Part shown: positions 16,185 to 45,978 of the stretch, piece after piece
How positions within the stretch are numbered: position 1 is the first letter of the stretch
How the letters are laid out: every line of letters begins with the position of its first letter
Virus record (IMG/VR): IMGVR_UViG_3300042914_002726
Coordinates: 1 to 57,470 of that record
DNA length: 57,470 nt
Source: a virus
Reading direction: 5' to 3' (one strand)
Position numbers and translations under genes: made by a program
The notes under the pieces: model-generated
What the model was told of the DNA's origin: nothing
Seen by the model: only the letters and a program-made list of their open reading frames with translations
Database searches by the model: none

Positions 16185-17297
16185 TTAACTATGAACCATT
16201 TCATCTATATCAATTCCACGAATTATTGCCTTTAGTTCGTCCATGGATGATAAACGTTTTGCTTCGTCTTCTAAATTTTGTTTTTGAGCTTCTGCTAGAT
16301 GAATAATACTTTTGCGACGTTCCTCATCTTTCCACGCCTGTACTAAATTAAGAATACTAGCGTTTTCCTGTTTCCGCTCTTGTATTTTTTTAGATCTATC
16401 ATCTACAAGTGATTTATATAATTTATTTTGCCTATTACGACATTGGTTATATTCAGTTTGTAAGCTACTAATCGCCTCATTAAGACTCATTTTAATATTG
16501 CGCCCCTCGTCTTCTTCGGAGGCTTGACGTAATAATTGTCGCAAATCTTCAACTTGTTGTAAAATTGTAGAAGCAGTAACAACTTCTGTACACAAGGTAA
16601 TAAATTGATCTAATTCTTCTTGTGTTAAGTCTTCCTTGTCATAAGTATAACGAATAAAAGCATCCTCAAATAATTTACGATCATCCTCACGACGATAGGT
16701 ATTAATTTGATAACAAAAACTAAAAGTATTCAAATATCTTTGCAACATTTCTACCTGTTTAATTTGAACGGCTTTTAATTTTTTTTCTTCCCATCCTAAA
16801 TTAAGATATTTATTAATTCGGTATAATGTTTGATCCATACGGCGCGGTGGAAAATATTCACTAATAGGACTTGGAGCAGAAGTTTCCGGCTCTTTTGGCA
16901 CATAAGTAGTCATATCTAAATATGTAGGATCGGCCTTTTGTAATTTATTAACGTATTTGTTAACTTCGCGCGATTCAAGGCTAAGGTGGGTTAAATTATT
17001 ATTTTTAAATAAAATTTTTGCCATATCTAAGTAATGTTGATTTTTATAATTATTTTTTATAAATTCTTCGTGATCTGTTGTTAATGAAATTCGATCTCTT
17101 TGAAAGACAGAACGATTTTTGTATTCAATATTATTATCTAATAAATACTGTTTTAAAATCCGCCCTTCTTTACTACGACTATCAATATTTTCATTATTAT
17201 AAGTGTAAACAGTAATCTCCGTAAGTGTGGCTTCGGGATTTTTTTGCAAAAATTCTTTTAATCTATTTTGCTGTTCTAATGTAAGAATTTCTTCCAT
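16185..17297 (-). CDS. Unknown helical protein upstream of nuclease and terminase
   Basis: 370 residues, charged and largely helical, with a coiled coil toward the C-terminus (about 265-345). The N-terminus (about 1-60) looks like a helix-turn-helix array (LTEITVYTYNNENIDSRSKE). Position upstream of terminase makes a small-terminase-like or packaging-recognition role possible, but the length exceeds typical small terminases and no family is recognised. Its start overlaps the sigma-like gene stop (TAATG). Confidence 0.6.
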   Translation of the reverse strand: MEEILTLEQQNRLKEFLQKNPEATLTEITVYTYNNENIDSRSKEGRILKQYLLDNNIEYKNRSVFQRDRISLTTDHEEFIKNNYKNQHYLDMAKILFKNNNLTHLSLESREVNKYVNKLQKADPTYLDMTTYVPKEPETSAPSPISEYFPPRRMDQTLYRINKYLNLGWEEKKLKAVQIKQVEMLQRYLNTFSFCYQINTYRREDDRKLFEDAFIRYTYDKEDLTQEELDQFITLCTEVVTASTILQQVEDLRQLLRQASEEDEGRNIKMSLNEAISSLQTEYNQCRNRQNKLYKSLVDDRSKKIQERKQENASILNLVQAWKDEERRKSIIHLAEAQKQNLEDEAKRLSSMDELKAIIRGIDIDEMVHS

Positions 17298-18007
17298 TAT
17301 AATACCTCCCTTACTACTTCGCGCGCTTTTTGTAAAATTTTTGATTTGATTTTACTAATTTGTCTATATGCTGGCCGACCTTCTTTTAAACTTAATTTAT
17401 AACCCATTTTTTTTGCTACTTCCGCCTCGTCTAAATGCTGTAAAAACATATAGTCATAAACCTTCCACTCAATGATACTTAGATTCTTCTTCATGATTTC
17501 ATGAAAAAGTGGCATTAAATTTTCTATATCCATCATGTTCTCTGTATCATGTAAAACATTTTCTAAAGTTGTTTCAGGATTGTCATGGTTTGGACTATGA
17601 ATACTTAATGGAAATTTTACATCATAAGCAGATTTTTTACTCTTCTCCCACTTAGCGTAATCTTTACAAGAATTGTTTTGTGTTCCATATATAGAACAAC
17701 CATAATCACCAGTATTAAATGGACATTTTAAACATGGGCGCGAGAAATTAGAATAATGATTTCTAAGCATATTAGTCATTTGGTGGTTAATAACTTGATT
17801 AAGCCATGGCCTCATAGGGCGCAGTGGATCCCATTTCTCCCATTTCTTATAAATATGTATTCTTAATCTTTGAGCAACATCTTCGAAATCCATCCATGCG
17901 ATGGCAGTTAAATGCCAACGATGTTTGCGTTTTTGAATTTCAGAATTAATAATATCTATCGAGTCTTCGAAAGATGGCCTAACAACGCCTTTTTTCTTAC
18001 GTGGCAT
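17297..18007 (-). CDS. Sigma-70-family-like factor with inserted zinc cluster
   Basis: 236 residues. Residues about 38-88 resemble sigma region 2 (WMDFEDVAQRLRIHIYKKWEKW ... RPWLNQVINHQMTNMLRNHY). A four-cysteine cluster follows (Cys92, Cys95, Cys104, Cys114). The C-terminal ~60 residues fit a region-4-like helix-turn-helix (LSIIEWKVYDYMF ... EVAKKMGY ... YRQISKIKSKIL). A T4 gp55-like late sigma is the closest functional analogue. It would direct host RNA polymerase to phage promoters, plausibly the AGTGTAA boxes seen before virion genes. Sits one base after the zinc-ribbon gene. Confidence 0.72.
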   Translation of the reverse strand: MPRKKKGVVRPSFEDSIDIINSEIQKRKHRWHLTAIAWMDFEDVAQRLRIHIYKKWEKWDPLRPMRPWLNQVINHQMTNMLRNHYSNFSRPCLKCPFNTGDYGCSIYGTQNNSCKDYAKWEKSKKSAYDVKFPLSIHSPNHDNPETTLENVLHDTENMMDIENLMPLFHEIMKKNLSIIEWKVYDYMFLQHLDEAEVAKKMGYKLSLKEGRPAYRQISKIKSKILQKAREVVREVL

Positions 18008-33220: not shown

Positions 33221-33300
33221 CGTAAGGCGCTGATAATCAGGCACTTACAGCGGCGCGCCCCGCCGCGCAGCGTAAGTCGTTGAAAATGAGGCACTTACGC
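33221..33300. repeat. Intergenic palindromic repeat, copy A
   Basis: Core GGCGCGCCCCGCCGCGC flanked by inverted ACTTAC/GTAAGT arms and TTGA-ATnA-type outer units. An extra conserved tail, TTCATGAAGCGTGCCAACTT, follows at 33310-33329, then an A-rich tract and a promoter. Confidence 0.85.
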
Positions 33301-34431: not shown

Positions 34432-34508
34432 TAAAGCGTTGAATATCAACGACTTACGGCGGCGCGCCCCGCCGCGCAGCGTAACTCATTGCAAATCAAG
34501 CACTTACA
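34432..34508. repeat. Intergenic palindromic repeat, copy B
   Basis: Contains TTGAATATCAACGACTTAC, the GGCGCGCCCCGCCGCGC core and GTAACTCATTG. The downstream tail TTCAGATGCCGTGCCAAGT follows at 34519. Confidence 0.85.
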
Positions 34509-35997: not shown

Positions 35998-36076
35998 CGT
36001 AAAGCGCTATAAATCAACGACTTACGGCGGCGCGCCCCGCCGCGCGGCGTAAGTGCTTGAAAATCAACGGCTTACG
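35998..36076. repeat. Intergenic palindromic repeat, copy C
   Basis: Full copy with AATCAACGACTTACGGC, the GGCGCGCCCCGCCGCGC core and GTAAGTGCTTG. Followed by TTCAGGAAGCGTGCCAACTC at about 36087, the same tail as copies A and F. Confidence 0.85.
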
Positions 36077-36816: not shown

Positions 36817-37272
36817 ATGGATGAACGGCCAATCAAGACAGCCCAACTTAAAATTTATGGGCGATTAGAACGCTCGCATATTCATTATGATCGTGTCATA
36901 ATCTGTGAAGATGGAAGGCAATATGAATCAAGATCAAAATGCTGTGACGGATACTGGGGACTTTACCCCTCTTTTAGAATGTCATGTCCAAAAACATATC
37001 TGAAAGGGAGAGAACATCATGGATTCTATGACAGCATTGATGAGGAAAAATTAATGCGTGACATAGTTGATGTCTGCTTACCTTTCCAATTCAAGATTGA
37101 ATCTATAAAGTTTTATGACATTCCATTTATATGTCCCGAAACTGGCATTAGTTGGCAATATAACAGGCCAGACAAGAAAGAATATAATTCGCACTATAAA
37201 TGGAAAAAATTGCCCAAAAATAGAAAAACCTTTATAGTATGCCAAAGAGAATGTGACCACATAAAAGCTTGA
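36817..37272 (+). CDS. Unknown protein, AT-richer than neighbours
   Basis: 151 residues, with six cysteines including SKCCDGYWG, FRMSCPKTY and FICPETG that might bind zinc. GGAGG lies about 9 nt before the ATG, so it is translated as a second gene of the operon. Visibly AT-richer than the surrounding block, which may indicate separate acquisition. Confidence 0.55.
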   Translation: MDERPIKTAQLKIYGRLERSHIHYDRVIICEDGRQYESRSKCCDGYWGLYPSFRMSCPKTYLKGREHHGFYDSIDEEKLMRDIVDVCLPFQFKIESIKFYDIPFICPETGISWQYNRPDKKEYNSHYKWKKLPKNRKTFIVCQRECDHIKA

Positions 37273-37335
37273 TAATCAACGAGTTACGGCGGCGCGCCCG
37301 GCGCCCATGCGTAAGTCATTGAAGCAGAGGACTTT
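37266..37335. repeat. Intergenic palindromic repeat, copy D (degenerate)
   Basis: GATAATCAACGAGTTACGGC, core GGCGCGCCCGGCGCC and GTAAGTCATTGAA. It overlaps the 3' end of the minus gene 37316..37567, whose last codons are built from repeat sequence. Confidence 0.75.
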
Positions 37336-37659: not shown

Positions 37660-37731
37660 GGGAAGGTAGCTCAAAGGTAGAGCAGCGCCCTTTTAAGGCG
37701 TTGGTTCTGGGTTCGATCCCCAGTCTTCCCA
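37660..37731 (+). tRNA. tRNA-Lys (UUU)
   Basis: Acceptor GGGAAGG pairs with TCTTCCC. Anticodon loop CTTTTAA gives UUU. T stem CTGGG-TTCGATC-CCCAG. CCA not encoded. Confidence 0.93.
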
Positions 37732-37754
37732 CGAAAAAAATTTCAAAAAACCCG

Positions 37755-37790
37755 TTGACAAAACCCTCAAAAAGATTTATTCTTAGAACC
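37755..37790 (+). promoter_or_regulatory. Leaderless sigma70-type promoter
   Basis: TTGACA, 17 nt, TATTCT, 7 nt, ATG at 37791. Confidence 0.75.
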
Positions 37791-38054
37791 ATGAAAGCAC
37801 TACTAAACAAAATCAAACTCGCAATCGCTGACTCTAAACTCGGCGTCATCACCAACCCTGTGTATCGCTTGAAGTATCGGCCTTACACCGATCAAGGAAA
37901 CAAAGACGTTGAAACCTACTACGTCTCTCGTCCCTTCGATGGGTTCAAGAATGGTATCACCGCCTACTGCTTCGGCAAAGGTGTTCGCAGGTTCCGCTTC
38001 GATGAAATCGTTGAGCGGGAAGTTGTATCGCTCTTTGGAAAATCTGTGGCGTAA
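37791..38054 (+). CDS. Small WYL-like protein
   Basis: 87 residues from MKALLNKIKLA, the start set by the promoter. YRLKYRPYTDQGN ... YYVSRPFDGF and GITAYCFGKGVRRFRFDEIVE match the beta-strand order of WYL domains, ligand- or nucleic-acid-sensing modules of transcription regulators. No helix-turn-helix is attached. It is the last gene before the giant RNA candidate, and its stop lies within that RNA's first hairpin. Confidence 0.6.
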   Translation: MKALLNKIKLAIADSKLGVITNPVYRLKYRPYTDQGNKDVETYYVSRPFDGFKNGITAYCFGKGVRRFRFDEIVEREVVSLFGKSVA

Positions 38055-38806
38055 AGCCACACTAATCTGCCCGACAATCAATATCGGAAATAAAAGATGC
38101 AAAGTTAACCGGATCTTTGCGGTGGTCGCGTAAGCGAAAACAAAATATCCGCCGAGGCAGATAAACATTTACAAGTAGCCCGAAAAAATATCGGAAACAA
38201 AAGCAGGACAGAATAGCGTCTGTCATCATATACAAAACGCACCGAGGCTTGACTTTAAATATCTACGAGGTAAATGCCAGAGGGAACTGGCGCCCACGCG
38301 TAGAGAATAAACTCCCACAATTTTAGTTCTTTTACATTTTGCCCGAAAGGGAAGAATATCCATAGCTTCTATAGAACCGATGTGCGCTCGGATGCTGCTT
38401 GGAGAATAAGGCGCACAAATCTTGAGGGTTGACTCCTCCCAAAAGGGGGAGAGCGCGCAGCTTAAAAATAGAGGAATTAACCTCCAACCCGCAACCACTC
38501 TCCCAAGCTCTGGCGGATACATCTCCGTTCAACTTGTGAGCTAATTACCGCAAGGTAATTCGATGTCGGTGCCGCCAGAAGGCACGGAGTCATAGGCAGG
38601 GAGTTCTGGCCTCCCTGTCACCACTTTCTATAAAGAAACGGAACGTTCTTGGTTCGCTACCAAGATAGTCAGAACCCACTGATGATGAGAAGCAGATAGC
38701 CAACTGTAATAAGGGGGATAGTTACCATGACTCGCATACGGTGTGCGTAGCTGAATCTGCCCGATCCGAAAGGAGATGAAGGCAAGAGGAGGTAGCCGAA
38801 CATTTC
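38046..38806 (+). ncRNA. Candidate giant structured RNA (GOLLD-like) before tRNA-Cys
   Basis: About 750 nt without a credible gene but dense in helices. ATCTGCC (38065-38071) pairs with GGCAGAT (38156-38162), closing a multi-helix domain. GCAGAT (38692-38697) can pair with a second ATCTGC copy (38755-38760). GNRA-capped hairpins occur at 38126-38137 (GUAA), 38342-38351 (GAAA), 38543-38560 (AATTACC-GCAA-GGTAATT) and 38765-38774 (GAAA). Others include GACAGA/TCTGTC (about 38207-38224), GCCAG/CTGGC (about 38276-38291), TGTGCGC/GCGCACA (about 38380-38417) and CAGGGAG/CTCCCTG (38597-38617). Size, GNRA wealth and position next to a phage tRNA fit GOLLD RNAs; ROOL-like or a new class is possible. 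Confidence 0.7.
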
Positions 38807-38878
38807 GCACCTTTCGCCAAGTGGTAAGGCCAGGGTCTGCAAAACCCTTATACGTTGGTTCGAATCCAACAAGGTGCT
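38807..38878 (+). tRNA. tRNA-Cys (GCA)
   Basis: Acceptor GCACCTT/AAGGTGC, anticodon loop CTGCAAA (GCA), T arm GTTGG-TTCGAAT-CCAAC. No encoded CCA. It directly follows the giant RNA candidate and touches repeat copy E. Confidence 0.92.
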
Positions 38879-38950
38879 GATTATCAAGCACTTACACCGC
38901 CGAGCCGGGCGCGCGGCCATAAGTCGTTGAATACAAACAACTTATAAATT
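38878..38950. repeat. Intergenic palindromic repeat, copy E (degenerate)
   Basis: ATTATCAAGCACTTACACCG, a diverged core CGAGCCGGGCGCGCGG, then CATAAGTCGTTGAATAC. Lies between tRNA-Cys and the next promoter. Confidence 0.75.
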
Positions 38951-38962
38951 ATAAATATCCAG

Positions 38963-38997
38963 TTGACAATAAAATCAAATAGGGTTATTCTTACAAC
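38963..38997 (+). promoter_or_regulatory. Leaderless sigma70-type promoter
   Basis: TTGACA, 17 nt, TATTCT, 6 nt, ATG at 38998. Consensus-grade. Confidence 0.8.
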
Positions 38998-39723
38998 ATG
39001 ATCACCACACAACTACCACTACCCATGCGTTGCTCCTCTGATGCTCTCGTTCAGCCAGAGCTTGAACTCAAGCCTACGCGCAATCCTTCCTACTCTCGCG
39101 TCGAACGCTTCTTTGATTCTTTGGATCGTTCGCGTGTTGTGTCATACACCGACTACTGGAATTCCGTTGCGCCCAAGGGAACGCAAGATGCAATGTTGCG
39201 CTGGCTCTTTGCTTTTATGTCAGTCCATACGAGTTGGAAGTCCAACGTCAATGGCTACAACGCTATCAAGACGATGGATTGGTTACAAGACCAGATGGTC
39301 TTGTTAAACAAGCTCAAGCATAGCGGCGTTGGCTTGCACAATAACCGCACAAAGTTTGTATGGGAGTTCCAGCAAAAGTTCTGGAAAGACATTTCCAAGT
39401 ATTCGCATGAACCCGCCGATTGGCGCAATCATCGTAACGAGTTGGTCAAGGACGTTCTTGGTCTTGGCAAAGCTAAAGTCTCTTTCTCTCTGGAGATGAT
39501 CCATCCAGACAAGTGCGAAGTTGTCTGCATGGACACTCATATGTTCCAAGCCTACTCGCTCGACCAAACCAAAGACGAAAAACATTACGATAACATCGAG
39601 GCCCATTGGATTTCCATGTGCCGTGCGTATGACGTTCCCTGCTACATTGCGCGTTGCCTTTACTGGGACGCAATCCAGAACAAACAGGATTCGCGCTACT
39701 GGTCGTATGTTTTTGAAGAATAA
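38998..39723 (+). CDS. Putative HhH DNA glycosylase-like protein
   Basis: 241 residues. A helix-hairpin-helix-like VLGLGKAKVSFSLEMI (about 153-168) followed by VVCMDTHMF (about 176-184) resembles the HhH-GPD pattern in which a glycine-rich hairpin precedes a catalytic VDTH segment, as in EndoIII/OGG relatives. If so, it would bind or excise modified bases. Iron-sulfur ligands are absent. The similarity is by eye and could be convergent. Confidence 0.5.
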   Translation: MITTQLPLPMRCSSDALVQPELELKPTRNPSYSRVERFFDSLDRSRVVSYTDYWNSVAPKGTQDAMLRWLFAFMSVHTSWKSNVNGYNAIKTMDWLQDQMVLLNKLKHSGVGLHNNRTKFVWEFQQKFWKDISKYSHEPADWRNHRNELVKDVLGLGKAKVSFSLEMIHPDKCEVVCMDTHMFQAYSLDQTKDEKHYDNIEAHWISMCRAYDVPCYIARCLYWDAIQNKQDSRYWSYVFEE

Positions 39724-45907: not shown

Positions 45908-45978
45908 CTGTTGAAAATCAACAACTTACGCCAGTGCGCCCGGCGCGGCGGCGTAAGTCATTCATAATCAACAACATA
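45908..45978. repeat. Intergenic palindromic repeat, copy J
   Basis: GTTGAAAATCAACAACTTACG, degenerate core GTGCGCCCGGCGCGGCG, GTAAGTCATTCATAATCAAC. Last copy, marking the right end of the GC-richer block. Confidence 0.78.

Follow-up and report, generated by a model that had tools for sequence, protein, structure and literature searches.

A candidate new class of large, mosaic non-coding RNA beside tRNA-Cys in a narrow group of tailed phages

Introduction

What is encoded in a stretch of about 750 nt that lies between a small ORF and a tRNA gene in a phage genome and contains no credible gene? The question is raised by a 57-kb IMG/VR virus record (IMGVR_UViG_3300042914_002726), analysed at positions 1-57,470 and referred to below as the window, in which such a stretch (38046-38806) separates an 87-aa ORF from tRNA-Cys. 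The record represents a tailed phage, marked by proteins of RIIA/RIIB type and by a virion protein with cyanophage and HMO-2011 relatives; the largest contigs among its close relatives measure 130-180 kb. A sequence-only reading had proposed a giant phage RNA joined to the tRNA: a divergent GOLLD, a ROOL relative or a new class. The function of giant phage RNAs near tRNA genes is unknown. GOLLD and ROOL assemble into cages made of RNA alone, held by kissing loops and A-minor contacts, again with unknown function, and the level of GOLLD RNA rises during lysis (PMC12286853).

Homologues and distribution

The RNA stretch is single-copy in the window. Its most constant part, a 123-nt core, is carried by nine further IMG/VR contigs, in the same place after the 87-aa ORF; these represent seven further distinct sequences. 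Seven loci were obtained by using the HhH-glycosylase-like protein encoded nearby as query and the remainder with core patterns. Since the matches in L003 and L004 agree, as do those in L007 and L017 over the compared part, eight distinct sequences are available with the window included; their cores are 87-96% identical and form a closely related set. In a tenth contig (L075/L095) the 5' end is present up to block A, at which point the contig terminates.

No detectable copy was found in more distant phages with a 46-56% identical glycosylase, nor was there a match in GTDB genomes, named phages or plasmids, as far as exact patterns, BLAST and core models can detect one. Core models run against 20 more distant phage records gave nothing convincing, one of these searches covering the loci only. 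The best phage blastn matches were confined to the tRNA-Cys part of the query, and L010 was discarded as a chance pattern match with surroundings that share no similarity. Judged by these comparisons, the carriers are a narrow group of tailed phages. No publication describing this RNA was found in the literature covered, which was incomplete.

Evidence for a structured non-coding RNA

The suspected lack of a gene was borne out: there are 6-16 stops per frame in the 752 nt of the window RNA, and no reading frame is kept among the homologues. The predicted fold is far more stable than that of shuffled sequences (-232.9 against -203.5 ± 6.1 for 20 shuffles, z -4.8). Where at least four GNRA hairpins had been expected, exactly four GNRA-capped perfect hairpins were located (GTAA 38126, GAAA 38342, GCAA 38544 and GAAA 38765).

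The helices are preserved through compensatory changes, counted as pairs changed on both sides: 21 pairs in six blocks, namely (i) one in A; (ii) one in B, within its pseudoknot; (iii) two in C; (iv) five in E; (v) five in F; (vi) seven in G. The observed covariation score was reached by 0/500 shuffles for F and for G, 1/500 for E, 22/500 for B, 40/500 for C and 81/500 for A, so that block A alone is not significant; with few and related sequences (n=8) the shuffles overstate significance, and the structure of G was derived from the same alignment in which its covariation was scored. In block B the TATCGG strand lies one to two columns off between subgroups in alignment A5, and helix 2 of this block is therefore undercounted. 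When partners were slid as a control, most pairing was lost.

The sequence-only reading had named beforehand the comparison of covariation with conserved frames, and compensatory pairs were found where no frame is kept. Because these changes agree across separate blocks and no frame is kept, a real structured RNA is much the best reading of the stretch. Unrecognised coding sequence or chance folding is scarcely credible: spurious minus-strand ORFs of up to 98 aa are present, but the absence of a kept frame, the compensatory changes and the z of -4.8 speak against it, and the covariation effectively refutes it.

Individual elements of the first proposal fared differently. The ATCTGCC/GGCAGAT helix (38065/38156) occurs in 6/8 sequences, with one compensatory change from C-G to U-A in L014, and the repeat CCCGA..TATCGGAAA at 38070 and 38179 is real, marking two look-alike blocks (A and B). 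A second helix, GCAGAT at 38692 with ATCTGCC at 38754, did not hold: both strands are present in the window and L007, the complementarity is lost in L002, L003, L005 and L006, and the alignment favours in its place a local GCAG..CUGU hairpin, which shows a compensatory change. As this second helix is not conserved, the idea that duplicate ATCTGCC strands exchange between alternative folds has no comparative support; a competing-strand arrangement exists elsewhere, in core F.

Block architecture of the locus

The RNA consists of closed helical blocks (Table 1), several of them with pseudoknot-type loop pairing. Blocks A and B follow a common plan, GCCCGA..TATCGGAA..hairpin, with the loop paired to a 3' strand, ..CCGAGGC, and to judge from the sequence may be duplicates of a single domain. 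Folded alone, E (z -3.9) and F (z -3.8) are strongly stable, A, B and C moderately so (-2.7 to -1.7), and neither D (-0.6) nor G (0.2) is stable.

Table 1. Features of the RNA locus and its surroundings in the window, with their occurrence among the eight distinct sequences.
Feature	Position	Strand	Remarks
Promoter-like TTGACA-17-TATTCT	37755..37783	+	upstream of unit; kept in homologues; consensus match only
87-aa ORF	37791..38054	+	directly upstream of RNA in all homologues
Hairpin H0, GTGGC(GTAAA)GCCAC	38046..38060	+	overlaps ORF stop; 6/8
Block A	38065..38162	+	closing helix ATCTGCC/GGCAGAT; 6/8; 1 compensatory pair
Block A hairpin	38099-38120	+	CGGAT loop able to pair with ATCCG at 38147-38151, giving a pseudoknot
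Block A GNRA hairpin	38126-38137	+	
Block B	38172..38252	+	plan as in A; AGCC/GGCT closing; 7/8
Block B hairpin GACAGA/TCTGTC	38207-38224	+	
Block B pseudoknot	38216-38218 with 38238-38240	+	loop GCG with CGC; pair changes C-G to G-C
Block C	38259..38316	+	TCTACG/CGTAGA closing, GCCAG/CTGGC hairpin; 5/8; 2 compensatory pairs
Block C loop pairing	TCCC at 38313-38316	+	with loop GGGA
Linker TTTTAGTTCTTTTACATTTTG	38321..38341	+	its AGTTCTTTTACA stretch once in each of 8 sequences, positions differ
Block D	38342..38419	+	GAAA-capped hairpin and GTGCGC/GCGCAC helix; window and L005 only
Block E	38422..38494	+	three-way junction, two hairpins; 4/8; 5 compensatory pairs
Core F	38498..38620	+	123 nt; 8/8
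Core hairpin P-a	38500-38540	+	
Core hairpin P-b	38543-38560	+	GNRA
Core hairpin P-c	38562-38591	+	
P-c loop GCCAGAA	38574..38580	+	perfect complement of P-d loop; invariant
Core hairpin P-d	38595-38619	+	
P-d loop TTCTGGC	38604..38610	+	invariant
Block G, 3' domain	38660..38799	+	6/8, absent in L008 and L014; 7 compensatory pairs
tRNA-Cys (GCA)	38807..38878	+	adjoins RNA; 6/8, missing in L005 and L014
Palindromic GC-rich intergenic repeat	38880..38939	+	3' of tRNA; possible terminator
Repeat copies, about six in window	33233-33287, 34442-34494, 36011-36064, 37270-37322, 38880-38939, 45910-45969		

Blocks A, B, C, D, E and G are gained, lost or reordered among the phages. The order is H0-A-B-C-linker-D-E-F-G-tRNA in the window, H0-A-B-C-linker-E-Y-F-G-tRNA in L002, H0-A-B-X-C-linker-E-F-G-tRNA in L003, C-linker-B-D-W-F-G1-G, with no tRNA, in L005, H0-A-X'-linker-B-E-F-G1-G'-tRNA in L006, linker-B-V-F-G1-G-tRNA in L007, H0-A-B-C-linker-Z-Y-F-tRNA in L008 and H0-A-linker-Z-U-F, with neither G nor tRNA, in L014 (U to Z, G1 and X' are labels of convenience for other closed blocks). 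The constant parts are core F and the linker, both in 8/8 sequences, together with block A, block B or both, again in 8/8.

A search for inter-block helices with compensatory change gave none (45 runs, with 38 in the control), so no such pairing links the blocks into one fold. Owing to this missing inter-block pairing, a serious rival is a cluster in which several small stable RNAs are cut from one precursor beside the tRNA, with each block working alone. The T4 species 1 and 2 RNAs, stable, structured and encoded beside phage tRNA genes, would be the model; the present locus, which is much larger and mosaic, is likened to them by kind and not by sequence. Closure of each block by its own helices and the freedom with which blocks are lost, gained and reordered fit such a cluster, whereas the constant retention of linker and core, in each case together with block A or B, and the lack of plus-strand promoter-like or terminator-like sites between the blocks count against it, both being weak evidence either way. 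Overall, the cluster is regarded as rather less than likely.

Core F and its complementary loops

When the loops GCCAGAA and TTCTGGC are kept free, four alike hairpins form in 8/8 sequences, with small differences at the stem bases, at a cost of 0-2.1 kcal/mol. Adding the loop-loop duplex (-9.7, a plain duplex energy and not a kissing-loop measurement) places this arrangement about 8-10 kcal/mol below the unconstrained fold in 8/8. The four-hairpin core comprises 46 pairs with 99.7% of cells paired, and its covariation score was reached by 0/500 shuffles. The unconstrained fold differs among homologues, and L006 takes the four-hairpin fold unaided. A long-hairpin core fold given by RNAalifold was set aside, because L005 and L007 disrupt its ACATC/GATGT helix.

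Of 428 pairs of adjacent hairpins across the window, only this one has at least six complementary loop bases. Because the loops never vary, their pairing shows conservation and not covariation. The P-c and P-d stems are only 3 nt apart, and a straight stack of 10 bp, 7 bp and 9 bp would span about 70 Å (2.8 Å per bp); since such a stack exceeds the 3-nt tether, we infer from helix geometry that the contact joins separate RNA molecules. A kiss within one molecule might become possible if the lower P-c stem melted. The strand TCTGGCGG (38509-38516) can take the same partner, which makes a switch between two folds possible.

Predicted transcription unit and neighbouring genes

The pattern TTGAC-N17-TATTCT has 2 matches in the window, against 0.03 expected. 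These promoter-like sites (37755-37793 and 38963-39000) end 6-7 nt before an ATG and would thus give leaderless messages. The palindromic repeat downstream of the tRNA (ACTTA..GC-rich..TAAGT) occurs in both orientations and also in relatives, and it may be a bidirectional terminator. A search of the plus strand between the blocks of the RNA found no promoter-like or terminator-like site. Given the promoter-like site, the lack of sites between blocks and the repeat after the tRNA, a single transcript would begin at the putative promoter ahead of the 87-aa ORF and extend through tRNA-Cys, and the 3' end of the RNA would be set by RNase P cutting at the 5' end of the tRNA.

Alternatively, the RNA could be a structured 3' UTR with a protective or regulatory effect on the mRNA for the 87-aa protein, or it could act in cis in tRNA-Cys processing, in either case with no role in trans. 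The RNA always lies directly after the ORF, whose stop codon sits in the loop of the first hairpin (H0) in 6/8 sequences, and tRNA-Cys follows in 6/8; yet the RNA is far bigger and more elaborate than either job requires, and it is kept in L005 and L014, both of which have no tRNA. This explanation is considered unlikely.

Pfam and PHROG gave no match for the 87-aa ORF. Its product has a weak SH3/WYL-like fold in an AlphaFold model of pLDDT 68, the barrel weakly resembling the WYL protein PafBC (E 0.07); as the constant upstream neighbour of the RNA, the protein may be a partner of it. Upstream of this ORF, Rfam tRNA matches above the cut-off (47 bits) lie at L002 815-885 and L014 5663-5733, and ARAGORN did not report them.

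Proposed class and mode of action

With no Rfam family matched and covariation present, the new class is the supported option among the three originally offered. The locus is read, with middling confidence, as a new class of large structured non-coding phage RNA, probably self-associating: a chain of closed helical blocks around a four-hairpin core, made during infection. The complementary 7-nt loops would join copies into dimers or rings, as predicted from the core geometry and by analogy with the loop-loop contacts of phi29 pRNA, GOLLD and ROOL, and the resulting assembly would act in infection, its outer parts altered by block swapping. In phi29 pRNA, loops pair between copies; it differs from the present RNA in size, context and sequence, and no Rfam match was obtained. 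A more specific form of the proposal, an unrelated further class beside GOLLD and ROOL that self-assembles into rings or cages, with cassette-swapped outer blocks and a fixed assembly core, is put forward tentatively. An independent class with a small core would offer a short construct for testing self-assembly as a common property, and the shuffled blocks amount to a natural test of which parts are important.

Comparison with GOLLD and ROOL

The GOLLD-type context, a phage-borne RNA of about 800 nt near a tRNA, is present but not diagnostic. Assembly into a 14-mer cage is a further character of GOLLD. Like the RNA described here, GOLLD (RF02032) is phage-borne, about 800 nt long, near tRNA genes and furnished with GNRA loops, and it has a conserved and a variable part as well as kissing loops (PMC12286853). 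ROOL (RF03087) is likewise a large ornate phage RNA near tRNAs, and its published structure has intermolecular kissing loops (PMC12286853).

Membership of either family was nevertheless not upheld. In a cmscan of 37730-39000 with E up to 5, neither GOLLD nor ROOL appeared, and Rfam recognises the tRNA alone in the locus; the sub-cut-off matches to Plastid-ycf2, sR18 and HOTTIP reflect antisense tRNA or chance. Neither RF02032, whose covariance model describes the conserved 3' region, nor RF03087 matched anything in six related records. For GOLLD the method is validated by a 150-bit score on a true GOLLD from a phage further removed (G018/L091), whereas the ROOL model matched nowhere and its search is thus without a positive control. 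Comparison of all blocks but B with the L091 GOLLD locus gave no convincing match. In contrast to GOLLD, the core precedes a 3' domain that may be absent, and the blocks are reordered and not only diverged; the 5' and 3' parts of ROOL are intertwined (PMC12286853), whereas the present blocks are separable. A divergent GOLLD or ROOL, to which the phage origin, the length of about 750 nt, the adjacent tRNA, the GNRA loops and the variable 5' part would be suited, is accordingly very unlikely in view of these searches. The RNA resembles GOLLD and ROOL in kind and is not a detectable relative of either.

The true GOLLD occupies L091 1501-1906 (IMGVR_UViG_3300042453_005575, 17289-17694), with a tRNA-Met upstream in the record. 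A Pistol self-cleaving ribozyme (40.9 bits) follows 12 nt after it, at L091 1918-1985 (17706-17773), and could set the 3' end of this GOLLD; no mention of GOLLD together with Pistol was found in the papers searched. Another Pistol ribozyme (60.5 bits) is present in a related phage (L096, in the record of L034, 66362-66430).
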